DNA of 64,000 bases from Aliiroseovarius sp. S1339. GTDB taxonomy: Bacteria; Pseudomonadota; Alphaproteobacteria; Rhodobacterales; Rhodobacteraceae. The stretch covers positions 62,001-126,000 of the forward strand of contig NZ_JALPQG010000002.1 of NCBI RefSeq assembly GCF_023195695.1. The letters run 5' to 3'. Made by a program: the position numbers and the translations under genes. Of this stretch, positions 20,152-37,608 are shown piece by piece; position 1 is the stretch's first letter; each line of letters opens with the position of its first letter. The notes beneath the pieces were generated by a model that was not told the origin of the DNA, searched no databases, and saw nothing but the letters and a program-made list of their open reading frames with translations.

Positions 20152-20165
20152 CGAGGATGAACCCA

Positions 20166-22685: not shown

Positions 22686-23373
22686 CGCCGCCATGGCAGA
22701 TCTGAGCACCAGCGAATGGACCGAGGTCAGCAAGCAGCGGGCCTTGGTCTATGGCTGGTTCTCAACGCTCTATGCGGGCGAAATCCCCAAAGACGTGCTT
22801 GCATCCTATCTGGCGGGCGAGGACGCTCCGTTTACGGCATTTTCCGTCCTCGGTCTGGACGCCGAAGTCCAGCGCATCCAAGCTGGCATCGAGGCTTTGC
22901 GCGACGTGGACCATGCGCATCTGGAACTGGCTGCAGATTTCGCGCAGATGTTTCTGATGGATGCAAAGGCCGGTGCGCTGCCTTATGCGTCGGTCTATGA
23001 CGCCGATGAAAAGCGGCTCTATGGTCCGGCCGAGGCGCGTATGCAGAGCTTTCTGGCCGGTGCGTCATTGGCCGTTCAGGATGAATTCAAAGAACCCGCC
23101 GATCACCTGGCCGTCTACCTCGCGGTGATGGCACGCATCACGGAAGAACAAGCGCAGGCCACGGATATCGTCGCCGCTGCGCGTGATCAACTCGCCTTTC
23201 TGGAGGATGCCCTGCTCACCTGGCTGCCTAGTTTCAACGAAGCCAATCAGGAAGCGTCGCCGCGCTACGACGTCTATCCGGCGCTGGCCGCCCTGCTGAT
23301 CGCTGTGGTCAAGCTCGACGCGGGTTTCATTCGAGAGGTTGCCGAACACAGTTCGCCGGTGAACGCGTCCTGA
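22678..23373 (+). CDS. torD: TorD-family chaperone for TMAO reductase
   Basis: This is a cytoplasmic all-helical chaperone of 231 aa that would bind the TorA Tat signal and help molybdenum-cofactor insertion. The family region [20 protein letters not shown] near residue 84 and the C-terminal [20 protein letters not shown] are recognisable. The chosen ATG at 22678 overlaps the torA stop by 8 bases; an ATG at 22693 is an alternative. It closes the torECAD operon. The sensor and regulator (TorSTR or DorSR) are not in the window. Confidence 0.9.
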
Positions 23374-23549
23374 ACAGGCTCAATCAGTTCTGTTTTCACC
23401 TCACGTCGGTGTATCAATGTCGTCAAACTCCCCCTTGCTGAGGCCAACGACAGATTGATCGCGGTGCTCCCTGCACCTGTCAGTTTACATCTACTCTTGG
23501 CGGCAAGACCCGAAGCGCTATCGTTTTCCGTTCCTGCATTCCCGCCCGA

Positions 23550-23786
23550 AACCGCCATCAAATGTGCTACCAATCTCGCACTGTCAGCTTCAGTCCAATT
23601 GTTCGGGTTAGTCACGGCGACCCGTGGCCGAACATAATCCGGGCCGTAGTAGGCATGGCCGTAGCCGGCAGGTGCCGCGTTCGCGAGCATCATGTCGACG
23701 GCAAGTTGGACCTGCGTCACGACCGGCACAGATTTAATATTCGGCGAAACATCAACCGCAGGCGGCTCTCGCATCCATTCCGGTGC
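23550..23786 (-). pseudogene. 3' fragment of an alpha/beta-hydrolase gene (Abhydrolase_9-like)
   Basis: A leftward frame contains APEWMREPPAVDVSPNIKSV followed by PVVTQVQLAVDM, GYGHAYYGPDYV and AVTNPNNWTEADSARL. This resembles, from memory, the C-terminal end of the large membrane-linked alpha/beta-hydrolase family (PF10081). The catalytic part of the family lies upstream of this segment and is absent here, and the flanking residues look like random translation. I call it a remnant. The rest of 23374-24032 has no supportable gene, only a possible IS3 OrfA scrap near 23890-23935. Confidence 0.5.
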
Positions 23787-24032
23787 GCAAAAAGGAAGCT
23801 GGTTCGTTAAATACAATCGGATCGCATGAGTATTGAAGATACGAAATCCGCACATCGCCCGGCCTTTCGGCCCCCCTGCGTCCGTCGTGTGTGAGGCAGA
23901 GAACCGTCGGTTGAAGCGCGAATTGGCGCGGGCTCTCGCGGAGCTCTTTCTTTTTTGAAGCCATTCCATTCGCCGTATTCTGTCAACATTTCCTCTTCAA
24001 TTGCAGCTTTGCGAAAGCCGACCGCCTGGCGT

Positions 24033-24248
24033 TCAATCGTTCGAATCCGTTTGGAGACACCTCAAGGCTTTCTTGATCTTCCTAAGAACGTCCGAGGGGT
24101 CGCCACCCTGCATGCCTTCATTTGCCGCGCGCAGAAGCGCCTTTTTATCGTCACGCCATTGTTGAAGCATGTTGATCTTTTCATCGCGGCTTAAAGTCTG
24201 ATCATTCATCAGATCGGTCGGTGAGTTGTAATTTCCAAGATAAGCCAA
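24033..24248 (-). CDS. Small conserved protein beside universal stress protein, unknown function
   Basis: I assign a TTG start at 24248, because AGGAG lies 7 bases before it and translation then begins MAYLGNYNSPTDLMNDQTLS. That gives 71 aa, charged and probably helical (DEKINMLQQWRDDKKALLRA). A longer frame to 24275 has no ribosome site. It lies 185 bases downstream of the universal stress protein gene on the same strand. I do not recognise a named domain. Similar small proteins beside stress proteins come to mind, so a stress or low-oxygen role is plausible but unproven. Confidence 0.6.
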   Translation of the reverse strand: MAYLGNYNSPTDLMNDQTLSRDEKINMLQQWRDDKKALLRAANEGMQGGDPSDVLRKIKKALRCLQTDSND

Positions 24249-24314
24249 GACATTTCTCCTGTTAACAAATACCAAATTTCGTGATCGACGGTGTCGTAGT
24301 CAGCGGACTGCGCA

Positions 24315-24346
24315 CCGGGGTTGTCTCTACTCAGACATCGCCCCGG
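24315..24346 (-). terminator. Hairpin downstream of the universal stress protein gene
   Basis: A two-part stem (CCGGGG at 24315-24320 with CCCCGG at 24341-24346, and TGTCT at 24322-24326 with AGACA at 24333-24337) lies about 90 bases after the stop of the stress gene. There is no T run, so termination strength is uncertain. It could separate the stress gene from the 71-aa gene. Confidence 0.4.
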
Positions 24347-24433
24347 ATTGCGTGATCAATCACACACTTCAAGCGGCAAAAACCTGCTTCGAGATCCTTG
24401 CAGCTTGGGCCCACACCACGTTTGGCGCCAATA

Positions 24434-25321
24434 TCAAGTCGCTGCGCCGACAGGCTTCGGGTTCCAGATCAATACATCGCAGGCCGCATCTCGCAGAAGA
24501 TGCCTTGAGACGCTGCCGATAAATGCGCGCCTGATCAGGCTGGATCGCCCTTGACCAAGCGCGATCAGATCGAAATCTTGATTGCGGCACAGGCGTGTCA
24601 GCGTCTTTGCAGGGTCGCCTTTCAACACCTCTGACGTGACACTCCGCCCGCACTTTTCCGTCAGATCTTTCAAGTGATCATGGGCATTCTTCACCAGGTT
24701 GCGCAGATAGGCCGCCAGATCAGCCGTCTGGGACCCGGCGCGCAACATGGCTTCTTTGAGTTGGGGCGGGATTTGTACGACTTGGACCACATGCAACCGA
24801 TTTTCCGGCAGAAGGGCGGATATAAAACGAGACGCATTCACCGCGTCGTCGCTGCCATTGGTTGCCAGCATGACACCGCCATATCGACGTTCGACGGGTC
24901 TTTTCACCACAAGCACCGGTATCTGCGTTGCGCCAATCACCCTGTCCGTTGTCGAGCCAAGCAATCTTTCGGTGATTTTCACCCTTTGGTGAGTGCGCAT
25001 GACAATCAGATCAGGCGATATCTCATTACATACCTCGATCAGCCGAAAAGCATGCGATCCCAACTCAATGTGTATCTGAACGTCAGAAGGGTCTGTCCCC
25101 AGTTCGGCTATGGCGCCTGCGATAACGTCGCGCGCCGCAAAGGCTGCCTGACCCAGAAAGGTGGTGATGTCAGTCAGATCCGCGATGTCTCCGGGAAGAT
25201 CGAGAACGTGGACAATGTGCAAATCAGACCGAGACGCCGTTGATATTTCAAGAGCGCGATGAAGGACGGCAACATCCTGCGGAAGTTGCCCAATAGCAGC
25301 GAGGATAGTGAAGTGTGTCAT
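24434..25321 (-). CDS. Tandem-domain universal stress protein (UspA family)
   Basis: This is a 295-aa cytoplasmic protein made of two Usp domains. The first ends with LLGSTTDRVIGATQIPVLVV and the second with FIGSVSRHLLRDAACDVLIW, both matching the G-x(2)-G-x(9)-G-S type nucleotide-binding pattern only in part. Such tandem proteins are common in stress and low-oxygen regulons. It lies among DUF1127 and Rnk-like genes. The nucleotide bound, if any, is not known. Confidence 0.85.
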   Translation of the reverse strand: MTHFTILAAIGQLPQDVAVLHRALEISTASRSDLHIVHVLDLPGDIADLTDITTFLGQAAFAARDVIAGAIAELGTDPSDVQIHIELGSHAFRLIEVCNEISPDLIVMRTHQRVKITERLLGSTTDRVIGATQIPVLVVKRPVERRYGGVMLATNGSDDAVNASRFISALLPENRLHVVQVVQIPPQLKEAMLRAGSQTADLAAYLRNLVKNAHDHLKDLTEKCGRSVTSEVLKGDPAKTLTRLCRNQDFDLIALGQGRSSLIRRAFIGSVSRHLLRDAACDVLIWNPKPVGAAT

Positions 25322-25361
25322 GGCCTTTGCCTCTGCGTAAAGTTACTTTATTCCAACGCGG

Positions 25362-25700
25362 CTATCTGGCAAGGATCATCTTTCCTAACCGCGCGTCTGG
25401 GGCAGAACCGGTCTGATTTGTTGGCTGTTTGGCTGGACAGCTGCGACTTGCGGGCAAGGCGCGCAGCCTCGGTGTTTGTTTGGCGCGCGCCCCTTCTGGT
25501 CCGGCCATGGACCCAAAACTGGCCAGCATGGACCGTGCCGTCCACATCGTCGCATCATATAGCATAACTGCAGGCATCGCATGAACTTTACCCACAGAAG
25601 GTGCTGGTGCAGCCCTCAATGATCGGTCATCTGCCGCTCCTGCCTTGGGCGAGAACAAATGTGGCAATAATTCTTCAAAGTCAGCTTTGCTAATCATCAT
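25362..25700 (-). CDS. Hypothetical protein, uncertain
   Basis: A 112-aa frame begins MMISKADFEELLPHLFSP, with AAAGGG at a usable distance upstream. The C-terminal part is rich in Ala, Pro, Arg and Lys and does not look strongly folded. It lies 40 bases before the universal stress protein start on the same strand. I recognise no domain. It could be a real small gene or a chance frame. Confidence 0.3.
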   Translation of the reverse strand: MMISKADFEELLPHLFSPKAGAADDRSLRAAPAPSVGKVHAMPAVMLYDATMWTARSMLASFGSMAGPEGARAKQTPRLRALPASRSCPAKQPTNQTGSAPDARLGKMILAR

Positions 25701-25806
25701 TGGATTGGCCCTTTCGATTAAAATAGTTGTCGTTCTTTGTGGGGCAGGTCCGGCCTTGACGCGCGAAGGCGGACCCAATCCGACGAGGGTGCGAACAGAC
25801 GGCCGA

Positions 25807-26112
25807 TCAAACGGCGCCTTGGTATTCTCCAATTGAACTTTGATCCACCGCCAGCGGAACCATCCCAAGTTCACGATCATCGAACCCGTCGACAATGCGC
25901 CCGATGTCTTTACGACGGACGCCCATGTCTCTGAGCACATGATCGTCCAACGCTTGCAACGCAGCGATCAGTTTGCGCCGTTTCCAGCCTCGGATGGCTG
26001 TGCGCCACCAGTGGCGCAAAAATCCGTCCTCTTCCGACACGGAAACGGTTTTCATTTCTGCCCAGTTCGGTCGCAGATCCAAGAAATTGTGGTGGAACAA
26101 TATGGGATGCAT
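25807..26112 (-). CDS. DUF1127 family protein
   Basis: This 101-aa protein has the arginine-rich DUF1127 core: RHWWRTAIRGWKRRKLIAAL and then LDDHVLRDMGVRRKDIGRIV. Small DUF1127 proteins in alphaproteobacteria are stress-linked and may bind RNA (CcaF1 in Rhodobacter is one studied case). The ATG at 26112 has GGAGG 5 bases upstream; the TTG 12 bases earlier is rejected. It is divergent from a structured element starting 142 bases away. Confidence 0.85.
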   Translation of the reverse strand: MHPILFHHNFLDLRPNWAEMKTVSVSEEDGFLRHWWRTAIRGWKRRKLIAALQALDDHVLRDMGVRRKDIGRIVDGFDDRELGMVPLAVDQSSIGEYQGAV

Positions 26113-26253
26113 GTCATCCTCCAAGCATAAGATAGCTGAAGCCGTGACGTCGATTTTGCTGTCGTGGAATTTCGAGAGGCGAAATATCGCAAGCGTAAGC
26201 TATGCGGTGCAAAACCTGCGTCTTCTCATTCAGATCCAGATGATCTGTAATAT

Positions 26254-26341
26254 CCCCGAGGCGTGAAGCGGCAACATTTGCCAGCCCCGCCCGGGGCTAC
26301 CGGCGGTTCAGTGTCTTTCCTGCGAAAGGCAGGAACCTCTT
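26254..26341 (+). ncRNA. Candidate structured cis-regulatory RNA, copy 1
   Basis: This stretch closely resembles 32848-32934. A hairpin forms between CCGCC (about 26287-26291) and GGCGG (26302-26306); its loop contains GGGG that can pair with CCCC at 26254-26257, giving a pseudoknot. A conserved GTTCAGT follows. A second hairpin, TTCCTGC (26317-26323) with GCAGGAA (26329-26335), hides AGGA, which lies 7 bases before an ATG at 26342. Stem bases differ from copy 2 in compensating ways. I do not recognise a known riboswitch class. Rightward orientation is inferred from the start codon and its ribosome site. Confidence 0.5.
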
Positions 26342-26500
26342 ATGCAAGCAGGTCATCATCATGTTTCTTATATGGGACGTATGAGCCGCGCTTTCAATCC
26401 TGACAGATTAAATCAGCGGATTTCGAAGCCGGCCCATCGGTTTGTGGGCCATTTGGGCCACAGAACGCCCAAAGTGCCTATGTTTGCGTCTCTGGATTGA
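26342..26500 (+). CDS. Short ORF after structured RNA, copy 1
   Basis: This 52-aa frame starts MQAGHHHVSYMGRMSRAF. Its first 12 residues match the short ORF at 32935 in the pattern M-x-A-x-x-HH-x-x-x-MG, and the two genes share the structured region just upstream with identical ATG spacing. The tail is basic (RLNQRISKPAHRF) and shows no domain. It may be a leader peptide or a small regulated protein. Coding status is unproven. Confidence 0.35.
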   Translation: MQAGHHHVSYMGRMSRAFNPDRLNQRISKPAHRFVGHLGHRTPKVPMFASLD

Positions 26501-26572
26501 CTATTAGTCCATCAATACCTAGGTCCATTTACATGATGGTACATGCAGAACATTTTCGATTTCTACTGCTGA

Positions 26573-26612
26573 ACCGCCCCTTTCCCCGGGCGGTCTAGGC
26601 GCGTCCGCGCCT
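26573..26612 (+). promoter_or_regulatory. Structured leader upstream of the Rnk-like gene
   Basis: Two hairpins stand side by side: ACCGCCC (26573-26579) with GGGCGGT (26588-26594), and AGGCG (26597-26601) with CGCCT (26608-26612). They lie about 70 bases before the ATG at 26681, possibly ending the short upstream transcript or shaping the leader. No T run is present. Confidence 0.4.
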
Positions 26613-26680
26613 GCCACACCCCCGGGGTCTCCTCACATTCCTGAAACGTGAACACGGCGTCTGTCGCCGGAGGAGAAATT

Positions 26681-27133
26681 ATGTTCGATCTCAGTCAGCC
26701 TGACCGGGCAACCATCGCAGTCCATTCCCTTAGCAGAGCACTGCAGAACACGCCTTTGGCATTGCCCAAGACCGATCACCAGAAACTGCAGGAACATCTT
26801 GATGCGTGTGATTGCGCTTTGCGCCCCCGCTCTAAACTTCTGGCGTATGTGCTGGCAAACAAGCTGATGAACACGCGGCCCGTGGATGGGTTGCATTGTT
26901 CTGATCTGGCGGTCGGTGGATCACGCGTCACCTATGCGATTGATGGCGAAACGCCCCAGACAGGTTTGCTTGTCCACCGGGCCAGAGCAGGATTGCCCAG
27001 CGGTATAGTCCCTGTTGCGTCATTGCTTGGTGCCACCTTGATCGGGATGCGGGTCGGTCAACGTGCGCCGCTTCTGAACGAAGACGGAACCATTGGCAGG
27101 CTTGCCGTAATCGACGTCACAAGCCCGATCTAG
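26681..27133 (+). CDS. GreA/GreB C-terminal-domain (Rnk-like) protein, first copy
   Basis: This 150-aa protein has a helical N-terminal half and a C-terminal FKBP-like GreA/GreB/Rnk fold (VGGSRVTYAIDGETPQTGLL and later SLLGATLIGMRVGQRAPLL). Such proteins bind RNA polymerase near its secondary channel. The N-terminal coiled coil of GreA with its acidic tip is not present, so it would not act as a cleavage factor. The ATG at 26681 is preceded by GGAGGAG. A second Rnk-like gene follows 48 bases later; the two differ strongly in sequence. Confidence 0.75.
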   Translation: MFDLSQPDRATIAVHSLSRALQNTPLALPKTDHQKLQEHLDACDCALRPRSKLLAYVLANKLMNTRPVDGLHCSDLAVGGSRVTYAIDGETPQTGLLVHRARAGLPSGIVPVASLLGATLIGMRVGQRAPLLNEDGTIGRLAVIDVTSPI

Positions 27134-27181
27134 GTCCCTGGCCAGGTCCTGCACTCACCTATGAACGAAAGGAGACGTTCA

Positions 27182-27613
27182 ATGTCTACCTCTATCCAAA
27201 CACCGAAAACATCACGCAATCGGAACCCGAAAATCGTCATCAACGCGGATGATCTTACGCATTTGGAAGGACTGGTCGATGGCATGATGAGACGTCATCC
27301 GGCGCTCGCTGACCGCCTGCTTGATGAAATCAGTCGGGCGCGGATTGTGTCGCCTGCTAAGATGCCAAAAAATGTGGTGGGCATTGGCAGCACCGTAACC
27401 TACCGTGATGAAAGCACGGGGCAAAACAAAACGGTGACTCTGGTCTATCCCGAAGACGCCGATATCACGCAGTTTCGAGTGTCGGTGATGACACCTATCG
27501 GTGTGGCCCTTCTGGGGCTGGCCGAAGGGGCAAGTTTTTACTGGGATACACGGGAAAACCAGCGCCGCACGTTGACCATCATCGGCGTAGAGCAACCTGA
27601 GACCGATATTTGA
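27182..27613 (+). CDS. Rnk-like nucleoside diphosphate kinase regulator (GreA/GreB C-terminal fold)
   Basis: This 143-aa protein is closer to classical Rnk: a short N-terminal helical region (DLTHLEGLVDGMMRRHPALA) followed by the conserved VGIGSTVTYRDESTGQNKTV, TLVYPEDAD and SVMTPIGVALLGLAEG. Rnk-type proteins interact with RNA polymerase. The ATG at 27182 follows AAGGAG. It is probably co-transcribed with the preceding Rnk-like gene, and a hairpin follows. Confidence 0.82.
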   Translation: MSTSIQTPKTSRNRNPKIVINADDLTHLEGLVDGMMRRHPALADRLLDEISRARIVSPAKMPKNVVGIGSTVTYRDESTGQNKTVTLVYPEDADITQFRVSVMTPIGVALLGLAEGASFYWDTRENQRRTLTIIGVEQPETDI

Positions 27614-27637
27614 AGCCCGCGTTGCGGAACAGACCGT

Positions 27638-27675
27638 TCAGGCGAGCACCCTCTTGCGGCACGGCGCTCGCCTGA
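27638..27675 (+). terminator. Hairpin after the Rnk-like pair
   Basis: A perfect 10-bp stem (TCAGGCGAGC at 27638-27647, GCTCGCCTGA at 27666-27675) with an 18-base loop starts 24 bases after the Rnk stop. No T run follows, so it is a weak terminator or an RNA-stabilising stem. Confidence 0.5.
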
Positions 27676-27738
27676 CAGCAGATAGATAAAAGATTTGGCG
27701 TAGTTCATGCTGCGCACTGCAATCGAAAGGTGTTTGTG

Positions 27739-28998
27739 ATGAGAGTTGTCGTTATGGGCGCGGGTGTCATTGGCGTCACCACAGCATATTATTTGGCAAA
27801 ACAAGGCGCCGAAGTCGTGGTGATCGACCGTCAGACCGGGCCGGGTCTTGAGACGAGCTATGCCAACGCGGGGCAGCTAAGCTATGGCATGACATCGCCA
27901 TGGGCAGCCCCCGGTATTCCGATGAAAGCCGTCAAGTGGATGTTCATGAAGCGCCGCCCCCTGTTTATCTGGCCGCTGATCAGCCCCACCATGTGGAAAT
28001 GGTGCGTGCAGATGGTGCGCAACTGCAACGAGGAAAGCTATCGCATCAACAAGGGGCGCATGGTGCGTGTCTCAAGCTACTCGCGCGATGTCATGCCAGA
28101 TCTGATTGCCGAAACCGGCATCGAATATGACGGGCGTCAGCAGGGCACTCTGCAATTGTTCCGCACGGCCAAACAGATGAAGGCATCGAAGGCCGATCAG
28201 GACATCTTGGCGGAATATGGATCGCCTTACGACGCGCTGGGTCGCGATGCCTGTATCGCCGTTGAGCCTGCGCTCGCAGAAGTGCGCAACAAGTTCGTCG
28301 GTGGTCTGCGTCTGACCGCGGATCGCACCGGCGATTGCCGCATGTTCACAATCGCCCTGACCGAAAAATGCAGCGAGATGGGGGTTGAATTCCACTATGG
28401 CCAATCCATCAAATCGATCGCTGTCGAGGGGGACAAGGTTGTAGGTGTTGACACGGAAATCGCCGGTCGCATCAGCGGGGACGCTTATGTTTGTGCCATG
28501 GGCAGCTATGCAGTGAACGTGCTGACCCCAATCGGGATCAAACTGCCGGTTTACCCGGTCAAGGGCTATTCGGTGACCTTGCCTGTCACCGACGATGCGT
28601 TCGCACCGCAATCCACGATCATGGACGAAACCCATAAAGTCGCGATCACGCGTTTGGGGGATCGCATCCGTGTTGCAGGACAAGCCGAGATTGCGGGCTA
28701 TTCCGATCGCCTAGGCCCACATGCCACGGATACCGTCAAGCACGTGATCAAAGATCTGTTTCCCAAAGGCGGAGATATTTCTAAGGCCGAGGGCTGGACC
28801 GGTCTGCGCCCGATGACGCCGGATGGAACGCCGGTTCTGGGCCCAACGCAGTTTGACAACCTGTTTCTGAATACTGGGCATGGGACGCTGGGCTGGACGA
28901 TGGCCTGCGGCTCAGGCCGCGCGGTGGCCGACATCGTGCTGGGAAAGACACCAGAGATTTCTATGGATGGGCTGACGGCGGCTCGATACGCACGATAG
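27739..28998 (+). CDS. dadA: D-amino-acid dehydrogenase
   Basis: This is an FAD enzyme of 419 aa that oxidatively deaminates D-amino acids, passing electrons to the respiratory chain. The N-terminal dinucleotide-binding motif is VVVMGAGVIGVTTAYYLA, followed by VVVIDR. The family's SYANAGQLSYGMTSPWAAPG and the C-terminal GWTGLRPMTPDGTPVLG are present. The ATG at 27739 has AAAGG 8 bases upstream; GTG codons at 27730 and 27736 are less likely. No dadX racemase or Lrp regulator lies beside it. A long hairpin follows. Confidence 0.92.
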   Translation: MRVVVMGAGVIGVTTAYYLAKQGAEVVVIDRQTGPGLETSYANAGQLSYGMTSPWAAPGIPMKAVKWMFMKRRPLFIWPLISPTMWKWCVQMVRNCNEESYRINKGRMVRVSSYSRDVMPDLIAETGIEYDGRQQGTLQLFRTAKQMKASKADQDILAEYGSPYDALGRDACIAVEPALAEVRNKFVGGLRLTADRTGDCRMFTIALTEKCSEMGVEFHYGQSIKSIAVEGDKVVGVDTEIAGRISGDAYVCAMGSYAVNVLTPIGIKLPVYPVKGYSVTLPVTDDAFAPQSTIMDETHKVAITRLGDRIRVAGQAEIAGYSDRLGPHATDTVKHVIKDLFPKGGDISKAEGWTGLRPMTPDGTPVLGPTQFDNLFLNTGHGTLGWTMACGSGRAVADIVLGKTPEISMDGLTAARYAR

Positions 28999-29004
28999 CA
29001 CGCG

Positions 29005-29039
29005 CGTCTGCGGTCTGGCAGGAAGCGCGACCGCAGACG
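29005..29039 (+). terminator. Hairpin downstream of dadA
   Basis: An 11-bp perfect stem (CGTCTGCGGTC at 29005-29015, GACCGCAGACG at 29029-29039) with a 13-base loop begins 6 bases after the dadA stop. It has no T run on either strand. A role in ending or stabilising the dadA message is likely. Confidence 0.5.
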
Positions 29040-29263
29040 GTTGACGAAACAGGTTTCGGGCTTGCGATCTAGGATGCGCGGGCAGCCTATTCGCAAAATA
29101 TCTTCGCAGACCAAGAACCATCTGGATCAGATGCGTTCGTGGTCCAAAGGTGAAACTATGATCTGTCGCAGTCCGTTACTTGTCTGGGTGCACCTGGGCA
29201 GGCGAACCTGATAAGATGAAAGCCAAGGTGCCGGATTGGCACAACCGCCAGAAGGGACACTGG

Positions 29264-30307
29264 ATGAACAGCTGGGTTACTGACGCAATCGGAAAGATCA
29301 ACGCGGATGCGCATCGTTCGGCTGACACACATCTTTTCAAGCTCCCTCTGCCGCGTCTTGAGGGCGTGGACATCTACCTGAAGGACGAAAGCACCCATCC
29401 GACTGGAAGCCTCAAGCATCGGCTTGCTCGGTCGCTGTTCTTGTATGCGCTGTGCAACGGCAAAATTCGGGAAGACACGACCGTCGTTGAGGCGTCTTCT
29501 GGAAGCACCGCCGTGTCCGAAGCCTATTTCGCGCGCATGATCGGCGTGCCCTTCATCGCTGTTGTTCCCGAAAGCACCGCGCGCAGCAAAATCAAGCTGA
29601 TTGAATTCTATGGCGGTCAAATTCACTTTGTGGATGCCGCTCCGCAAATGCACAGTGCATCGGTCGAGTTGGCCCGCGAGATTGATGGCTATTTCATGGA
29701 TCAGTTCACCTATGCCGAGCGAGCCACAGATTGGCGTGGCAACAACAACATCGCTGAAAGCGTGTTCACGCAGATGGAACGCGAACCTCACCCGATCCCT
29801 GCGCATTTGATCATGAGCGCTGGCACGGGCGGCACGTCGGCGACGCTGGGACGCTACATCCGCTACAAAGGCTATGACACCGAACTTACGGTCGTTGATC
29901 CGGAAAATTCAGTCTTCTATGACAGCTACATTAGCGGTGATCGCAGTCTGATTTCCGACAAATCCAGCCGGGTGGAAGGGATCGGCCGCCCAAAGGTAGA
30001 ACACTCGTTTCAACCCGGCGTGATCGACCACATGATACAAGTGCCTGATGCCGCCAGCATAGCCACGATGTTGTGGCTGGAAGAGCTGATCGGACGCAAG
30101 GCAGGGCCATCAACAGGGACAAATCTTTGGGGGGCTTTGCGGGTTGCTCAGGACATGGTCAAGGAAGGTCGCCAAGGCTCTATCGTCACGTTGTTGTGCG
30201 ACAGTGGGGAACGGTATCTTGACACCTATTACAATTCTGATTGGGTCAGTGACTGTATCGGTGATTGCCAAAGATATCACGAAGAGTTGGTGGCCGCCCA
30301 TGGTTGA
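29264..30307 (+). CDS. PLP-dependent cysteine desulfhydrase (Cds1-like)
   Basis: This is a fold-type II PLP enzyme of 347 aa, resembling mycobacterial Cds1, which breaks cysteine down to sulfide, pyruvate and ammonia. The PLP lysine is Lys51 in [27 protein letters not shown] at about 78-90 and the phosphate-binding loop SAGTGGTSA at 185-193 are present, with [17 protein letters not shown] between. The ATG at 29264 has AGAAGGGA 6 bases upstream, better than the ATG at 29216. It could also be a cysteine-synthase relative. Its neighbour dadA is another amino-acid degrading enzyme. Confidence 0.8.
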
Positions 30308-30337
30308 CCATTCACTGTAGCCTGATCAACAGAATGA

Positions 30338-31594
30338 CTATTTTGGTTTGACGGGGTCCGTGCGGGGATCAAGTGCCATAGCGATGGGCGTAACATCCGG
30401 AAGCGGCACATACCGTTCCTGTTGGTCTGCTGGAATGACTGGCCGTATGGCGACTTGGGTCAGCACGAAAACTGCATAGAGAATTGCGACGGCGCTTTCG
30501 AAGATAAAAAAGCTGGACGGACCGTAGGCTGACATAAGCGTCGCGGCGAGCACCGGGCCGATCGTCGCCCCGATTGAATATACCATAAGCAAGCGGCCAG
30601 ACGCTGCGATGTAGTATTTCCGTTCCAAACGGTCGAAGGTTTGCGCAACGCAGAGCGGATAGACGCTGCTCATCGCCCCCCCAAAGAATACGGCCATGGT
30701 CAGCAAGGTCGTAAACGGCAGACCAGAGGCGACAAATGTGGCCAATATCCCCCAAGCGGTGCCGACCGCGATCAATGCACCTGACATGACAATACGCCGG
30801 TCGAACCGGTCTGCCACCACGCCCATAGGAAGTTGGAAAACCAGCCCCCCAAGAACCACGGCGCTCATGAACATGGCTGCTTGCGACACGCCCAGCCCGA
30901 TCTTAAGCGCAAACACGACACCCATCGCATAGAAGGACCCGACCATCAGGCCTGCCACGCCTGCACCGACCACGCCAACCTTCGACGCCGAATAAAGATC
31001 CCTGACGTTCAGCACACGGCTTTCGCTTAGATTGGGTTCGCCCAAGCTGGTCATTGCAACCGGGATCAGTGCAAGTCCGATCAGGGACGCCGCCAACATG
31101 AAGAGGTCTGGACCAGAGACATCGGCGATGTTGACCAGCGTCTGCCCCGTCGCAATCGCGAGATAAAAGGTCAACATGTAGAAACTGAGAACCCGCCCGC
31201 GCGTCTCGTTGCTGCTGCGGGTATTCAGCCAGCTTTCAATCGTGGCCGTCAAACCAGCGATGCAGAAGCCGTTGACAATGCGCAGGATCAGCCACGCCAC
31301 GGGATGGAAAAAGGCCGCATAAGCCAGTGTCGCAGCAGCGGTCAGCGCCGCGAAAACGGCGAAGGCTCGAATATGGCCGATGCGAAAAATCACGTGTTTG
31401 CCGCGCAGACCGCCCAATGCCAGGCCAAGGTAATAGGCCGCCATAATCGCGCCGGTAAGGGCGACGGGATAACCAGCACCCTCCATCCGAAGCGGCAGTA
31501 TGACACCCAGAAGGCTATTACCGATCATGAAGGCTGCAGTACCTCCCAAAAGGGCTTTTACCGAGACAAGAATTTCGCGAATGCTTTGTGCCAA
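30338..31594 (-). CDS. MFS transporter (YcaD-like)
   Basis: This is a 12-segment major facilitator of 418 aa from my chosen TTG start at 31594, which has GGAG 7 bases upstream and places the first membrane segment near residue 15, as in the family. A longer frame to 31681 lacks a ribosome site. Family features include GLALGGLRGKHVIFRIGHIR and TIESWLNTRSSNETRGRVLS. The substrate is unknown. It lies convergent to the Cds1-like gene. Confidence 0.82.
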   Translation of the reverse strand: MAQSIREILVSVKALLGGTAAFMIGNSLLGVILPLRMEGAGYPVALTGAIMAAYYLGLALGGLRGKHVIFRIGHIRAFAVFAALTAAATLAYAAFFHPVAWLILRIVNGFCIAGLTATIESWLNTRSSNETRGRVLSFYMLTFYLAIATGQTLVNIADVSGPDLFMLAASLIGLALIPVAMTSLGEPNLSESRVLNVRDLYSASKVGVVGAGVAGLMVGSFYAMGVVFALKIGLGVSQAAMFMSAVVLGGLVFQLPMGVVADRFDRRIVMSGALIAVGTAWGILATFVASGLPFTTLLTMAVFFGGAMSSVYPLCVAQTFDRLERKYYIAASGRLLMVYSIGATIGPVLAATLMSAYGPSSFFIFESAVAILYAVFVLTQVAIRPVIPADQQERYVPLPDVTPIAMALDPRTDPVKPK

Positions 31595-31794
31595 GTTCGT
31601 GCTCCGGTCTTCGCCCTTGTGAGGCTGTGTGCAAGGAAGTGTGGGCAAGGGTATGCCTTCAACAACCCTGCCTAGAAACACCGATTTTGTCGATATTTAA
31701 TGAATGGCTGTTTGCAAGCCATGTCCTGCTTTGCCATCACAAGTGGGATCAATACCGGAACGGATGGCAAGCATGTCTGACGCGAACAGATGAA

Positions 31795-31821
31795 ACAAGC
31801 CCCGGGGATGCCGGGGCTTGT
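31795..31821 (-). terminator. Terminator after dps
   Basis: An 11-bp perfect stem (ACAAGCCCCGG at 31795-31805, CCGGGGCTTGT at 31811-31821) has a 5-base loop and lies 26 bases after the dps stop. T-rich bases follow on both strands (TTGTTTGTCT rightward, TTTC leftward), so it may act in either direction. Confidence 0.65.
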
Positions 31822-31846
31822 TGTTTGTCTAGATTATTGAATGAGG

Positions 31847-32326
31847 CTAGGCGGCCAGTGACCGCAGCATCCAAGCCGTTTTTTCATGAAAAGCGGCGCG
31901 TTCCGTTGCAAGGTCGGCGGTCGCCGGATCATTTTCCGCTTCCGCGATTTCAACCAAGGCACGTGCACGCTCTGTCAGCGTTTCGTGATCCGCCAGAAGG
32001 TCGTTGATCATCTGAACCGCGCTCAGCGCTTCGTTCGCGCTTTTGTCCGTGTCCGAGACCTTTACCGATGCCAGCTGACCCAGCGCCCTGATACGTTCGG
32101 CAATCACGTCTGCCGCCGCGAACATCTCGTCGTATTGCTCTTCCGTCAGACTGTGCACGGCAAAGAACAACGGACCGGTCACGTTCCAGTGATAGGTATG
32201 TGTCTTGATGATAAGCGCGTAGGTGTCGTTCAACACCTCAGCCAGTGCGTCGACAACCGGCTTGGCATTCCGAATGTCGGGTTTTGGGGTGTCGGTCATG
32301 GCAGTTTGTTTCAAAGTCGTGGTCAT
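31847..32326 (-). CDS. dps: Dps-family DNA-binding ferritin-like protein
   Basis: Dps forms a dodecamer that oxidises and stores iron and protects DNA from peroxide. The 159-aa protein has the ferroxidase ligands in place: His46 in THTYHWNVTG, His58 and Glu62 in AVHSLTEEQ, then Asp73 and Glu77 in ADVIAERIRALG. The ATG at 32326 is preceded by GGAGAAG; a longer frame to 32458 is rejected. It lies between a DUF1127 gene and an MFS gene, in a stress-type neighbourhood. Confidence 0.92.
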   Translation of the reverse strand: MTTTLKQTAMTDTPKPDIRNAKPVVDALAEVLNDTYALIIKTHTYHWNVTGPLFFAVHSLTEEQYDEMFAAADVIAERIRALGQLASVKVSDTDKSANEALSAVQMINDLLADHETLTERARALVEIAEAENDPATADLATERAAFHEKTAWMLRSLAA

Positions 32327-32454
32327 GTCTTCTCCAATTCTGAAAGAGGTGCTTTGCGATGTGCATTCGTGCCGGGATAGGGATGGTGAAGTTGCACGCT
32401 GTTCGCGCGACATCGAGTGTCGCGACAGCGCGCTGCTTCCAGCTGCCAACCCTA

Positions 32455-32748
32455 TCACGACGGTCGCAACGCGCCCAGCTGATTGATGTTATCGACACCG
32501 GCTTGACGCGGGCTGATCCGTGCCTTTCGCTCGTGGCAGACAGCCACAAAACTGGGAATCTCGTCTCGTCGAAGTCCGATATCAGTGAGCATTCGGTCAT
32601 CGAGGTGCTGCAATTCAACGGTCATTCTACGGCGTTGCCACTTGTCGATCATTGCATAACGCAACCGCGCGAAAAGACCCATACCGTCGTCTGCCCGATC
32701 TTCGTGCGTAGGAATGTTGATCATTTTTCTAGTCAGATAAATGGACAT
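32455..32748 (-). CDS. DUF1127 family protein
   Basis: This 97-aa protein has the DUF1127 core LRYAMIDKWQRRRMTVELQH and LDDRMLTDIGLRRDEIPSFV. The ATG at 32748 follows GGAGGATAGC. Like the DUF1127 gene at 25807, it is divergent from a copy of the structured element, here starting 100 bases away. The pair of DUF1127 gene plus element seems to be a duplicated module. Confidence 0.85.
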   Translation of the reverse strand: MSIYLTRKMINIPTHEDRADDGMGLFARLRYAMIDKWQRRRMTVELQHLDDRMLTDIGLRRDEIPSFVAVCHERKARISPRQAGVDNINQLGALRPS

Positions 32749-32847
32749 GCTATCCTCCGATTCTGATAAGATGGAACTTGGATTTTCCCGCACCGCTGGC
32801 GGGTCATCTTCGTTCATTTTCATGCATTGGATGAGAGATCAGAATAA

Positions 32848-32934
32848 CCCCAGAGCAGGGACGCGCGCGAACGCTGCGTCCGCCTGGGGCTACAGGCGGT
32901 TCAGTAGTCTTCCCGCGACAATCGGGAACCTTCT
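32848..32934 (+). ncRNA. Candidate structured cis-regulatory RNA, copy 2
   Basis: This is the partner of 26254-26341. CCCC at 32848-32851 can pair with the GGGG in the loop of a hairpin formed by CGCCTG (32881-32886) and CAGGCG (32893-32898). An inserted hairpin, GGACGC (32859-32864) with GCGTCC (32876-32881), lies between. GTTCAGT is conserved. The last hairpin, TTCCCG (32910-32915) with CGGGAA (32923-32928), covers GGGA, again 7 bases before an ATG, at 32935. Where the stems differ from copy 1, pairing is kept. Confidence 0.5.
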
Positions 32935-33024
32935 ATGAAAGCTGAACAACATCATAACCCTCATATGGGCCTCGTGATGTGGTCTTTCAAGGCATCAATC
33001 ACGCCATATCACCCATTGGCATGA
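32935..33024 (+). CDS. Short ORF after structured RNA, copy 2
   Basis: This 29-aa frame begins MKAEQHHNPHMGLVMWSF and stops at 33024. It shares the pattern M-x-A-x-x-HH-x-x-x-MG with the short ORF at 26342; similarity ends soon after. The different lengths but shared starts suggest that the first residues, or the RNA that encodes them, matter most. Coding status is unproven. Confidence 0.3.
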   Translation: MKAEQHHNPHMGLVMWSFKASITPYHPLA

Positions 33025-33158
33025 ATGCGCTCAGATCGGATGCCGAAGCAATACCCAAGCAGCAGCATGCGGATGAGCAGTTCATGCTTCGATCAAGGAA
33101 GAGTTTTCAACGAAATAAGCCAATCTCAGACCCGTCCTTCCATTCACGCGACGCGGGG

Positions 33159-33795
33159 TCAGACGACATTCTTAGTGTAGGCGATCGACCCCGCACTCAC
33201 CCCAAGCACCTTCTCATGAATGTCTGACAACACTTCTTGAGCCCTCTCGGCCCGGGGCCCGTTCTGCGTGGACTTCATAAATCTTGGCATTTGAGCGCTT
33301 GTCTGCCCACAAAGTATACGAGCCAGATCGCTGCCGCGAGCGCCATAGACCGCCACGGTATCATGGACAAGGGTCCCTGCTATATGAGGTGAGTGTCCCG
33401 TCGCAACTCTGAAACTTCCCGGCATGGCCCTCGCTGACAAGGCTTCGTTCATATCATTCGTGAACAGTGGCGTACCCCGACGCCCGGCATAGCGTGACCG
33501 ACAATTCCTGCCTTTGCCATAAAGGAGGAGTTCATCCCGATAAGGTGTCAAACTATGATGAAGGATTCCACTGTGGCGAAATTCTGATTTTCTGGATGTG
33601 ACATTCAGCGTCCACCCACCTTCTTGACGCACGATGTGGCTTCCGATCAGCAAACAATCCAAATCTTTGACGCGCAACGGAACGAGCGACAGCAAGGCGG
33701 GATAGGCAGATCGTTGAAAATACTTCTTTCGATTGCTCGGCTGGTTCTCTTCCTGTGCTTTGCGGCGCCATTTGGCAGTTGAAAGAGCAATGTCA
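33159..33795 (-). pseudogene. Decayed tyrosine recombinase (phage-type integrase)
   Basis: A leftward frame reads KWRRKAQEENQPSNRKKYF, VPLRVKDLDCLLIGSHIVRQ, GGWTLNVTSRKSEFRH and GTPLFTNDMNEALSAR, matching the catalytic domain of integrases. The box that should read HxxR is HIAG in HSPHIAGTLVHD, and the region where the nucleophilic Tyr is expected reads AQMPRFMKS without Tyr. The N-terminal half is missing, and no start codon with a ribosome site is seen. It lies about 0.5 kb from the 3' end of tRNA-Ser, typical of an island integrase. Confidence 0.7.
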
Positions 33796-34312
33796 CGCAG
33801 ACAAAGTGGGCGGACGTGAGCTTGATGTTGACGAAGAAGCAGAGGCCCGCGCGGCGATCACCCTATACGTCTTTGACGTTGGAACGGACGAAGAAGATAT
33901 TGTATTTGTCGAAAGTGAACTTGACCTTAAACACCTCGACATTGACCTTGGGGAGGTCACTGTGTTCCAACCAGATGATTATTGGGATGGGGACGAAGAA
34001 AGGTGAATTCTGATGCACCCACATTTTTGTGAAACGCCTACAAAACAAGGCGCAAACCCCCACTAACTGCCTGATCAAAGGCGACAAACTAAGCGTGATG
34101 GTTAAGCTCCCAAACTCATAACGCTACAACGGCCAAAACCGTCGAAAAATATGGGGTTCAATCACGTAACATTGTACGATTTGCGACCCTGCGCTCTTGC
34201 GACGAAGAACGCACAAGGGCTGATACGTTCGCCAAATTTGCACCCTGAAATGTACCGCAACTGGGAGGAAAGAAAAGTTTATGTTCAATCCCAAAACCTT
34301 AGCTGGAATTAG
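33796..34312. other. Gene-poor stretch between integrase remnant and tRNA-Ser
   Basis: I see no firm gene in these 517 bases. One rightward frame ending at 34006 encodes a very acidic stretch (DLKHLDIDLGEVTVFQPDDY), but it starts inside the integrase remnant without a ribosome site, so I do not call it. I did not find a repeat of the tRNA 3' end here that would mark an attachment site. Confidence 0.4.
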
Positions 34313-34402
34313 TGGCGGAGACGAAGGGATTCGAACCCTCGAGACCCTTCCGGGCCTACTCCCTTAGCAGGGGAGCGCCTTCGACCACTCGGCCACGTCT
34401 CC
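34313..34402 (-). tRNA. tRNA-Ser (GCT anticodon)
   Basis: This is a 90-base class II tRNA on the minus strand. The acceptor arms GGAGACG and CGTCTCC pair, followed by G and an encoded CCA (TGG at 34313-34315 on the plus strand). The anticodon stem CTCCC/GGGAG encloses CTGCTAA, giving anticodon GCT, which reads AGC/AGU serine codons. A long variable arm and the T-loop GGTTCGAATCC are present. Its 3' end faces a decayed integrase gene. Confidence 0.95.
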
Positions 34403-34932
34403 GCTGACCCGTTTATCCATCTCAAAAAGACGGGGCAAGGGCGAAATGGAAAAAATGTCCTGTTGGGCTGGCTATTACCGCATCATGTAATGACGGGTGC
34501 ACAATCGAGTGTCATGGTCAGTTGTGCTGTTGCGCACAGGATGATCGGAGAACACAAGATCGCGGATGCGCAGCGGCCACTACGTTCGCAGCGCCAATCC
34601 TAGCGCTGCGAAACCGCACGGATCGGCTTGGTGCCCCCCCCTGCAGAGGGAGCGCCTTCAGAAACCTTCCTTGGCACACCCCATCTAGGTCGTACGGCGT
34701 TGGCCCGTTGCCATGTCCATTGGATCTGCTCTGCGCAAAAAAGATGCAATCTCTTGACCCCGTTGGACGCAAAGGTTTCAGTAAGAAGTGAACACGTTAA
34801 GATAATGGTCGCAATACAACAGAGAGACGGCGGCAAGACATGCGCTGCCTGCAAAAAAGCGCCTGTAATCATATCGCCAGGAGTTGCGCGGCGGCTCCCT
34901 GACCCATCACGCCTGACAGAATAGGAAATTCA
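34403..34932. other. Gene-poor stretch between tRNA-Ser and the Kef-type antiporter
   Basis: Several short frames cross these 530 bases on both strands. None has a ribosome site, domain or consistent composition. The last 20 bases hold the leader AATAGGAAATTCA of the downstream antiporter gene. The tRNA-Ser promoter must lie just right of 34402. Confidence 0.4.
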
Positions 34933-36807
34933 ATGACCGCCGAGTTCATGCTGATCGCCTTCACGCTGTTTCTGGCTGGGGTTCTGGCTGTGCCCATCGC
35001 ATCGTGGCTCGGCCTTGGGTCAGTGCTGGGCTATCTGACAGCCGGCATCCTTATCAGCCCGTTCCTGCACTGGGTCGGCACGGATGTGGTTGCGCTTCAG
35101 CATTTCTCGGAATTTGGCGTCGTCATGATGCTGTTCATTGTCGGACTTGAAATGAACCCGAAATCGCTTTGGGCGATGCGGTCTCGCATTTTCTTACTCG
35201 GTGGCCTGCAAGTCGTGGTCACAACGCTGATCGTCATGGCAATCGCCATGGCTTTTGGCCAACCTTGGAGCATCGGGCTGGCCATTGGTCTGGTCCTCGC
35301 CCTGTCCTCGACCGCGATCGTAAACCAGACCTTGCGGGAAAAAGGTCTGTTGCGGTCGGACGGTGGGCAGGCCAGCTTCTCGGTTCTGCTGATGCAGGAT
35401 ATCGCGGTGATTCCGATGCTGGCGTTAATCCCATTGCTTGCACTGCCTGAACTGACGGAAGCGATGTCTCATGGTGCCACGGGCGAAGGGGCGCACGGCG
35501 AGGGCGGTCTGAACCTGAGTCTGGTTGACGGGTTGAATGGCTGGCAGACAGGTCTGGTTACGCTGGCGGCCATCGCGGCTGTTGTCTTCATTGGCACCTA
35601 CCTGACCACACCTGTCTTCCGGTTCGTTGCACGCGCCCGACTGCGGGAGCTTTTTGTCACCACCGCCTTGATGATGGTGCTTGGCATTGCGCTTCTGATG
35701 ACTTTGGTCGGACTATCACCGGCTTTGGGCACGTTTCTGGCGGGCGTGGTGATGGGCGGTAGCGAATACCGGCATGAATTGGAAAGCGATATTGACCCAC
35801 TAAAGGGCATCTTTCTGGGCGTCTTTTTTATCACCGTCGGGGCAAGCATTGATTTTGGGCTGTTGGGCCAGAACATCGTGTTGGTTTTGGGTTTGACCTT
35901 TGGTCTGATTGCTCTGAAATGCGTTATCCTGCTGGCGCTGGGGCGGGCTTTCCGGCTGCAGGGGGGCGACAAATGGCTGTTCGGGCTGGGACTTGCGCAA
36001 GCTGGTGAGTTCGGTTTTGTCCTGCTGTCCTTCACCGTCGCGAATGCCGTTATTCCCAAGGACATCGCGGGCATTCTGCTTCTGGTCGTGGCCTTGTCGA
36101 TGTTGCTGACCCCTGCCCTGTTCATCCTATATGACCGCGTTATCGCGCCGCGTTATTCAAACAAAGAAGAGCGCGAAGCAGATATGATCGAGGAGCCCGC
36201 CCCAATCATCGTTGCGGGTCATGGTCGGTTCGGCGGCATCGTGAACCGGGGGTTGCGGGCCGCTGGGCATGATACGACGGTGCTCGACTATTCATCAGAG
36301 CAGTTGGCCCTGCTGCGCCGCTTCAAAATCAGCGTGCATTTTGGCGATGCAACGCGCCCCGACCTTCTGCAAGCCGCTGGCATTGGCGAGGCCAAGATCC
36401 TTGTCGTGGCCATTGACGGCAAAGACGCAATTACCGAGTTGACCCGATATGTTTGCGCGCATTTCCCGCATGTGCATGTCATTGCCCGCGCTGTCGACCG
36501 CAACCACGTCTATGACCTGTGGTCCGTTGGATGCCGCGATGTTATCCGCGAGACCTATGACAGTTCATTACGTGCCACCCGATCGGCATTTGAGGCGTTG
36601 GGCCACAGCCGCGCAACTGCCGAACGCATGGTCGCCGAATTCGATACATCTGATCGCGAGGTCATGCTTGATCTCGCTGAACTTCACGACATTAACATAC
36701 CTGCGGTGGAAAACGACGCCTATATGCAAAGGGTCAGCGAGATGATGGAAGTTTGGCAGGAACAACTGGCCGGAAGGGTATCAAACGCAACGAAAATCGC
36801 TGATTAG
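34933..36807 (+). CDS. Kef-type cation/proton antiporter (CPA2 family) with RCK domain
   Basis: This is an inner-membrane antiporter of 624 aa. About a dozen membrane segments fill the first 400 residues, including GLGSVLGYLTAGILISPFL and ALSSTAIVNQTL. A cytoplasmic RCK/TrkA-N domain starts near residue 417 with IIVAGHGRFGGIVNRGLRAA, a nucleotide-binding loop. It resembles KefB/KefC, which export potassium under glutathione-adduct control, but no KefF/KefG ancillary gene is adjacent. A His/Gly-rich loop (SHGATGEGAHGEGG) lies near residue 180. Confidence 0.85.
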   Translation: MTAEFMLIAFTLFLAGVLAVPIASWLGLGSVLGYLTAGILISPFLHWVGTDVVALQHFSEFGVVMMLFIVGLEMNPKSLWAMRSRIFLLGGLQVVVTTLIVMAIAMAFGQPWSIGLAIGLVLALSSTAIVNQTLREKGLLRSDGGQASFSVLLMQDIAVIPMLALIPLLALPELTEAMSHGATGEGAHGEGGLNLSLVDGLNGWQTGLVTLAAIAAVVFIGTYLTTPVFRFVARARLRELFVTTALMMVLGIALLMTLVGLSPALGTFLAGVVMGGSEYRHELESDIDPLKGIFLGVFFITVGASIDFGLLGQNIVLVLGLTFGLIALKCVILLALGRAFRLQGGDKWLFGLGLAQAGEFGFVLLSFTVANAVIPKDIAGILLLVVALSMLLTPALFILYDRVIAPRYSNKEEREADMIEEPAPIIVAGHGRFGGIVNRGLRAAGHDTTVLDYSSEQLALLRRFKISVHFGDATRPDLLQAAGIGEAKILVVAIDGKDAITELTRYVCAHFPHVHVIARAVDRNHVYDLWSVGCRDVIRETYDSSLRATRSAFEALGHSRATAERMVAEFDTSDREVMLDLAELHDINIPAVENDAYMQRVSEMMEVWQEQLAGRVSNATKIAD

Positions 36808-36924
36808 GTCGAACCTGTTGGCGGCCCAATCCACTTGGTGGACGGCGGCTGGCAGCACAGGTAGACTTCATGGCGCTACAGGATGGCACGCAGCTTGCAC
36901 GGTGCCACTTACAGGGGACACAAA

Positions 36925-37608
36925 GTGCCACACGAAACGTATAAAATCATTGCGCGCAATTCACTTTTCATGCGTGCCCTGCCCGATGCGCATGTCGAGG
37001 CGCTTCTGTCGCAAGCGACATGGCGTCATTTTGAACGTGGCGAGACCCTGTTTATGCAAGAAGACCCTGCCGAAGCGATTCACATCGTTCTAGACGGGTG
37101 GGTCAAACTCTACCGCATGACCCGTGGTGGCAAAGAAGCCGTGGTCAGCGTCTTTACGCGGGGCGAAAGCTTTGGCGAAGCGGTCGCGTTGAGAAATCTG
37201 CCCTATCCGGTGTCTGGCGAAGCCGCCACAAGTTGCGAAATCATGCACATACCGACCAGTGTTCTGGTCCAGCTTGTAAAGCGTGATCCCGAGGTTGCGT
37301 TGTCGATCCTGTCATCGACGTTTACCCACCTGCACGGGCTGGTTACCCAGCTTGAGCAGTTGAAGGCCAAGACCGCCCCTCAGCGGGTCGCAGAGTTTCT
37401 GCTGGGCCTGTGTAATGGGGCGCCAAGCGATTGCTCGATAAAATTGCCCTACGACAAGGTGCTGATCGCTGGACGTCTGGGCATGAAGCCAGAAAGCCTG
37501 TCACGTGCGTTTTCCCGCTTGGGGGCATTCGGGGTGCAGATCGACAAGAGCAGTGCGATCATCAGCGATGTGCAGAAGTTGCGCGACTACGCCCGCAACG
37601 ACGGCTAA
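36925..37608 (+). CDS. Crp/Fnr-family transcriptional regulator
   Basis: This 227-aa regulator has an N-terminal cyclic-nucleotide-type sensor domain (RGETLFMQEDPAEAIHIVLD near residue 37) and a C-terminal winged helix (LIAGRLGMKPESLSRAFSRL). It lacks the Cys cluster of oxygen-sensing FNR and fits the Dnr/NnrR-like side of the family. The GTG at 36925 has AGGGGA 6 bases upstream, better than the ATG at 36883. Its target and ligand are unknown. The torECAD operon and the neighbouring antiporter are possible targets, by position only. Confidence 0.83.
   Translation: MPHETYKIIARNSLFMRALPDAHVEALLSQATWRHFERGETLFMQEDPAEAIHIVLDGWVKLYRMTRGGKEAVVSVFTRGESFGEAVALRNLPYPVSGEAATSCEIMHIPTSVLVQLVKRDPEVALSILSSTFTHLHGLVTQLEQLKAKTAPQRVAEFLLGLCNGAPSDCSIKLPYDKVLIAGRLGMKPESLSRAFSRLGAFGVQIDKSSAIISDVQKLRDYARNDG

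Follow-up and report, generated by a model that had tools for sequence, protein, structure and literature searches.

A conserved leader with a predicted leaderless uORF, probably a ribosome-controlled attenuator, upstream of DUF1127 genes in Aliiroseovarius and other Rhodobacteraceae

Introduction

DUF1127 proteins are small and widespread, their function is unclear, and the family has an RNA-binding member. In Sinorhizobium meliloti, duf1127_1 is repressed via translation of a short upstream open reading frame (uORF) in its leader, and tetracycline and chloramphenicol induce it, the regulation presumably acting through Rho; the authors read this leader as a sensor of translation efficiency (PMC12218461). 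The present work concerns comparable leaders in a window of 64,000 nucleotides (nt) from Aliiroseovarius sp. S1339, the window being the whole stretch of DNA analysed, in which two copies of an element, copy A (26254–26341) and copy B (32848–32934), adjoin DUF1127 genes. A preliminary description had placed in both copies a plus-strand RNA switch or thermometer controlling a tiny peptide; the reading favoured here, with a probability of roughly 70%, is that every copy forms the 5′ leader of the stress gene beside it and acts as a ribosome-controlled attenuator with a leaderless uORF.

The leader in S. meliloti and those in the window share a short uORF ahead of a DUF1127 gene and a leader that keeps the gene low there and is predicted to do so here. 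Compared by description, they also differ: the S. meliloti uORF has its own Shine-Dalgarno sequence and a leader of about 30 nt, and no intrinsic terminator was found (PMC12218461), whereas the window leaders have a predicted leaderless uORF and a strong hairpin after its stop codon, and their relatives also precede Rnk/GreA-like genes. The trpL attenuator of S. meliloti opens its transcript with a leaderless uORF and continues with competing hairpins (PMC7298713, PMC10117765), as the window leaders are predicted to do, but these hold no run of Trp codons and their downstream genes are not biosynthetic. TTG and TAT are reported elements of the RpoHI/RpoHII promoters of Rhodobacter sphaeroides, including those of DUF1127 genes such as RSP_0557, and the class-1 promoter TTGAAA-N17-CATATC fits this TTG...TAT type; the available portion of that source mentions no uORF or attenuator for these genes (PMC10673084). 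A description of this uORF family was not found in the searches made of open PubMed Central papers.

Sequence sets

Two sets of sequences were compared. The similarity-found set holds 35 homologues, the window's two included (33 distinct sequences), of which 34 (one being too short), with 32 distinct uORFs, entered the counts of the fixed-place TTG, of kept residues and of the −20/−10 pair. The pattern-found set was selected by an exact core pattern (149 matches listed, 143 distinct contexts, nine too short), and 13 of its 134 full-length sequences, among the matches listed, fitted no class. The class-1 rule in this set also required AG before the core and a stop codon at a fixed place, so that these three features cannot vary within the set, which is no census; for this reason the stop, residue and gene-link counts were taken from the similarity-found set. 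Both sets, pooled and freed of near-duplicates, served for the ratio of nonsynonymous to synonymous differences (pN/pS), the promoter profile and the uORF-hairpin counts, while the T-tract, anti-Shine-Dalgarno and early-H2 folding figures derive from the pattern-found set, among the matches listed.

Results

Sequence comparison shows that the duplicated element is real and conserved beyond chance, and that the preliminary description misread its strand and peptide. Copies A and B are 77% identical over 90 nt (E 7e-11, own-genome search with copy A), they have GTTCAGT in common, the proposed pairing of CCCC with GGGG is possible and corresponds to the helix H1 described below, the DUF1127 genes lie 142 and 100 bases away, and the plus-strand open reading frames of both copies start as had been described. 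The Rfam comparison that had been suggested gave no family for the element: the scan of the window found tRNA only, and a lax scan of 26150–26650 returned four matches, all far under the gathering scores. Clear homologues were found by similarity search of 101 genomes in six others, namely G006 (three copies; same genus as the window genome), G007 and G013 (two each), G033, G022 and G055. With a covariance model built from 12 sequences, 28 matches reached E 2e-20 or better; they lie in 27 of the 394 genomes of the family, four of the 27 having supplied training sequences. At E 0.05 or better 49 of the 394 genomes have a match, weaker relatives and possibly chance matches included. Among 385 genomes drawn from the class, the core pattern occurs within one mismatch in six, the own genome included, the other five having single one-mismatch matches. 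None of 13 candidate stretches from viral contigs encodes a relative of the plus-strand peptide.

The comparison favours the minus strand, where the element would be the start of the DUF1127 messages. This strand carries a 21-codon uORF, about MTMFSLHTRFLLFAGKLLNRR, that ends at one and the same place with any of the three stop codons in 34 of the 35 homologues (TAG 22, TAA 11, TGA 1, other 1), and in 45/46 of the pooled set. By script, ATG, open frame and stop are found together in 31 of the 33 distinct similarity-found sequences; of the two failures, G197 is cut by the end of its contig, and G243 (anchor offset) proves open by eye once it is anchored elsewhere. In the uORF frame one of the 35 sequences has an internal stop; for the two remaining sense frames the numbers are 35 and 14, and for the three antisense frames 11, 24 and 24. 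The G–U versus A–C asymmetry in the hairpin inside the uORF supports the same strand: 36 cells are G–U on the uORF strand (A–C on the other) and six are the reverse, and at the −20/−10 pair the pooled set has T–A 39, T–G 14, C–G 8, G–G 1 and C–A 0 (n=62), an absence of C–A matched by only 3 of 10,000 shuffles in a statistic that ignores relatedness. The similarity-found set alone gives T–A 22, T–G 7, C–G 4 and G–G 1.

The features first read on the plus strand can be traced to this uORF and its promoter. The ATG of the preliminary description is the complement of the uORF His7 codon, His being kept in 30/32 distinct sequences, and it is not constant (29 of the 35 homologues have ATG, four GTG and two neither). 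Its HH...MG peptide is complementary to the promoter and uORF start, FN/FK answering to the −35 box, MG to the −10 box and HH to the uORF start, and the hairpin with the supposedly buried ribosome site sits within the uORF of the opposite strand. Nor is the tiny-peptide frame conserved, since nine of the 35 frames stop within 24 codons; these nine include the near-identical G318, G332 and G415, the contig-end sequence G197 and G243 with its anchor offset. Among the plus-strand frames that end almost at once are those of G006c (at codon 2), of five genomes (after MKTEHGHD or MKKEHGHD) and of G166 (after MKHEH). A minus-strand DUF1127 5′ leader, named beforehand in that description as speaking against it, is what the homologues favour.

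In L040 and L041 (G022), reading by eye gave yet another variant, whose uORF resembles MSVCSSQNRGRAFPGSLLNRSLPRAGGRMG. The leader also appears in records L101, L105 and L166, titled Enemella evansiae, Carideicomes alvinocaridis and Nocardioides marinus, which may be mixed or mislabelled assemblies.

Upstream of the class-1 uORF lies a TTG-N17-CATAT-type promoter, a promoter-like pair being present in all 61 sequences that remain of 88 once redundant ones are removed, and its spacer measures 17 nt in 58/61; shuffled sequence passes the promoter rule at 8%. TTG occupies the −35 place in 97–98% of the position profile from these 61 sequences and, at a fixed place, in 33 of 34 of the similarity-found set. 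CATATC and CATATG are the commonest −10 boxes, the ATG follows this hexamer by 6 nt in 57/61, and so transcription is expected to start at or beside the ATG and the class-1 uORF is, judging by this spacing, probably leaderless.

The link to the downstream gene is equally regular. A DUF1127 gene on the uORF strand follows all 35 similarity-found elements, the window's two included (phmmer E below 1e-3), and 53 of the 54 class-1 pattern-found sequences among the matches listed, two of them the window's. Of the six DUF1127 matches in the own genome, five exceed the cut-off and two carry the uORF leader; the core pattern, allowing up to three mismatches, was found near none of the others.

In class 1, hairpin H1 pairs CCCCGGGC with GCCTCGGGG directly after the stop codon, and hairpin H2 (CCGCC:GGCGG) spans the stop codon, which lies in its loop, and shares bases with H1; in class 2 the 5′ arm of H1 lies inside the uORF. 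Over 28 class-1 sequences, H1 is paired in 94.6% of the cells compared (31–62% in slid controls) and H2 in 92.9% (40–57%). Folding predicts H2 before the 3′ arm of H1 is made, with a mean probability of 0.81 that becomes 0.90 when the first 41 nt are hidden (41 sequences); once that arm is made, H1 is predicted in the four leaders folded. T is enriched after H1 in class 1 (3.96 of 9 positions versus 1.82 expected, 45 sequences), and a terminator-like match, 32860–32848, falls at H1 of copy B. A GATC...GATC inverted repeat just after H1 (26232–26248, minus strand) occurs in 22/44 class-1 leaders, the best arms having a mean of 4.3 versus 3.9 in shuffles.

A third related copy, copy C (class 2), which the preliminary description did not list, occupies 26533–26627 on the plus strand, back to back with copy A. 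Divergent class-1/class-2 pairs less than 400 nt apart number 12, the window's included, and tandem pairs about 1 kb apart number nine, among the matches listed. The gene after copy C bears a weak likeness to nucleoside diphosphate kinase regulators, scoring far under the NCBIfam cut-off, and has no Pfam match; the next gene, 27200–27613, is a clear Rnk with the GreA/GreB C-terminal domain (Pfam). Among the matches listed, a homologue of the copy C gene follows all 13 class-3 leaders and 46 of the 54 in class 2, the window's being one of them, and three of the eight other class-2 leaders there precede, by eye, an Rnk-like protein. In 49 non-redundant class-2/3 sequences (of 67 among the matches listed) the ATG is invariant and the stops (TAG 33, TAA 11, TGA 5) fall at several places; class-2 peptides share RFLL and LNR, and class 2 has three consecutive Leu codons. 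The class-2 tract after H1 is often CTCCTC, complementary to the Shine-Dalgarno sequence of the gene, and this pairing has a mean of 5.85 versus 4.38 when shuffled. A class-2 helix, CGGUU:AACCG, with apparent covariation was dropped because the base that changes stands in third position in an Arg codon.

The features of the three copies are collected in Table 1. Their surroundings (20157–37608) are of stress type, with a universal stress protein (24434–25321, minus strand), a ferritin-like protein (31847–32320, minus strand) and the Rnk gene at 27200–27613, all by Pfam; formate dehydrogenase-like and CRP/FNR-like open reading frames were recognised there by eye.

Table 1. Predicted features of the three leaders and their downstream genes (window positions)
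Feature	Position	Strand	Basis
Copy A promoter, −35 box TTGAAA	26392..26397	−	61-sequence position profile
Copy A promoter, −10 box CATATA	26369..26374	−	61-sequence position profile
Copy A uORF, predicted leaderless, MMMTCLHKRFLPFAGKTLNRR, stop TAG	26297..26362	−	Frame conservation
Copy A H2 5′ arm CCGCC, end of uORF	26302..26306	−	Kept pairing, without covariation
Copy A H2 3′ arm GGCGG, shared with H1	26287..26291	−	Kept pairing
Copy A H1 5′ arm CCCCGGGC, directly after uORF stop	26289..26296	−	Kept pairing
Copy A H1 3′ arm GCCTCGGGG, then ATATTACAG	26254..26262	−	Kept pairing
DUF1127 gene downstream of copy A	25807..26112	−	PF06568, 31.4 bits, over cut-off
Copy B promoter, −35 box TTGAAA	32985..32990	−	Position profile and sequence
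Copy B promoter, −10 box CATATG	32962..32967	−	Position profile and sequence
Copy B uORF, predicted leaderless, MMLFSFHRRFPIVAGRLLNRL, stop TAG; in-frame ATG 9 nt further upstream	32890..32955	−	
Copy B H1 5′ arm CCCCAGGC	32882..32889	−	Kept pairing
Copy B H1 3′ arm GCTCTGGGG, then TTATTCTGA	32848..32856	−	Kept pairing
DUF1127 gene downstream of copy B	32455..32748	−	PF06568, 37.8 bits, over cut-off
Copy C promoter TTGACT-N16-CTAGGT (proposed)	26497..26524	+	Sequence; similar boxes by eye in class-2 relatives
Copy C uORF MMVHAEHFRFLLLNRPFPRAV, stop TAG	26533..26598	+	
Copy C H1 5′ arm CCCCGGG, within uORF	26584..26590	+	Fold of copy C leader; 14 class-2 relatives fold alike
Copy C H1 3′ arm CCCGGGG, then TCTCCTC, complementary to GAGGAGA (26670–26676) before gene start	26621..26634	+	
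Rnk/GreA-like gene downstream of copy C	26681..27133	+	NCBIfam nucleoside diphosphate kinase regulator, E 8.9e-5, 22 bits vs cut-off 109

Discussion

The strand, the uORF, the promoter, the gene link and the kept pairing of H1 and H2 are supported by comparison of homologous sequences, and ribosome-dependent attenuation agrees with a uORF at the 5′ end, with hairpins that overlap in sequence around its stop and with the tract rich in T that follows H1 in class 1. Translation, termination or masking, the direction of the switch and its signal are the parts of the attenuator model that we infer. According to this model, transcription would start at or next to the uORF ATG, as the promoter spacing suggests, and ribosomes would translate the uORF, as its codon conservation suggests; the end of the uORF could form H2, and the sequence after the stop codon the stronger H1 (CCCCGGGC:GCCUCGGGG). 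Under normal translation the ribosome would finish and leave, H1 would form, and transcription would end in copies A and B, ahead of DUF1127, while in copy C H1 would let the adjoining tract mask the ribosome site of the Rnk-like gene. A ribosome stalled early in the uORF would allow H2 to form first and delay H1, and the gene would be expressed; the leader would in this way report poor translation and induce the DUF1127 and Rnk-like proteins. Class 1 may thus act by termination and class 2 by masking.

Several observations weigh against this model. Covariation of H1 amounts to one pair changed on both sides, no better than in shuffles, and H2 has none, which leaves kept pairing as the basis of the proposed switch. 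In all four leaders folded H1 is more stable than H2, and a switch between them would therefore have to be kinetic. The pN/pS of the uORF body is 0.65, the same as in an antisense frame, and column shuffles go down to 0.54; a sigma-70 consensus scan lists none of the three window promoters; and no long run of codons for a single amino acid names a signal, class 1 having no conserved run beyond two Leu. The window's terminator scan shows no overall excess (11 found, 7.2 expected), and because the T tracts are short, with TTT in 14/45 class-1 and 7/39 class-2/3 sequences, intrinsic termination is weakly supported. The anti-Shine-Dalgarno pairing of class 2 reaches p 0.05 in only 4/34.

These short T tracts suit the foremost of the alternative explanations, Rho-dependent attenuation, in which uORF translation would control the access of Rho, H1 and H2 would only shape the RNA, and there would be no intrinsic terminator. 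The S. meliloti DUF1127 leader has been proposed to work in this way, a candidate stem-loop there having proved to be no terminator (PMC12218461), but the mechanism needs neither a hairpin directly after the stop codon nor the enrichment of T in class 1, and it is considered unlikely here. More doubtful still is a nascent-peptide sensor, in which a small molecule or drug would cause the uORF peptide itself to stall the ribosome. H7, R9, A14, G15, L18, N19 and R20 are kept in 30 or 31 of the 32 distinct similarity-found class-1 uORFs, and the RFLL and LNR shared by class-2 peptides point the same way, but many of the kept residues fall in pairing segments (the uORF hairpin and H2), and constraint on the RNA can therefore explain them. 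That the conserved frame encodes a small protein acting in trans, the leader structures being incidental, is very improbable given the fixed link to two gene families and kept hairpins that overlap the stop codon. A small RNA family or a mobile element was rejected once the fixed downstream genes were seen. The plus-strand riboswitch or thermometer controlling an HH–MG peptide, for which an AGGA- or GGGA-bearing hairpin before the ATG in both copies and an ATG or GTG in 33 of the 35 homologues could be cited, is almost certainly wrong and was rejected on its early stops and its complementarity to the promoter, its start codon being the complement of uORF codon 7 and the C–A breaks of its hairpin being G–U on the other strand.

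In terms of the attenuator model, it is tempting to regard these leaders as a family of leaderless attenuators whose bases encode a peptide and an RNA switch at once and which form a small translation-status regulon, the back-to-back copies coupling DUF1127 and Rnk/GreA-like proteins to ribosome activity, a proposal that remains tentative and for which the odds are somewhat below even. The case also illustrates that an antisense promoter and an antisense codon can mimic a conserved ribosome site and peptide. The occurrence of a conserved uORF leader before DUF1127 genes of Rhodobacteraceae, besides that of Sinorhizobium, suggests that translation sensing recurs as an on-switch of DUF1127, and the same kind of leader links DUF1127 to Rnk/GreA-like genes.

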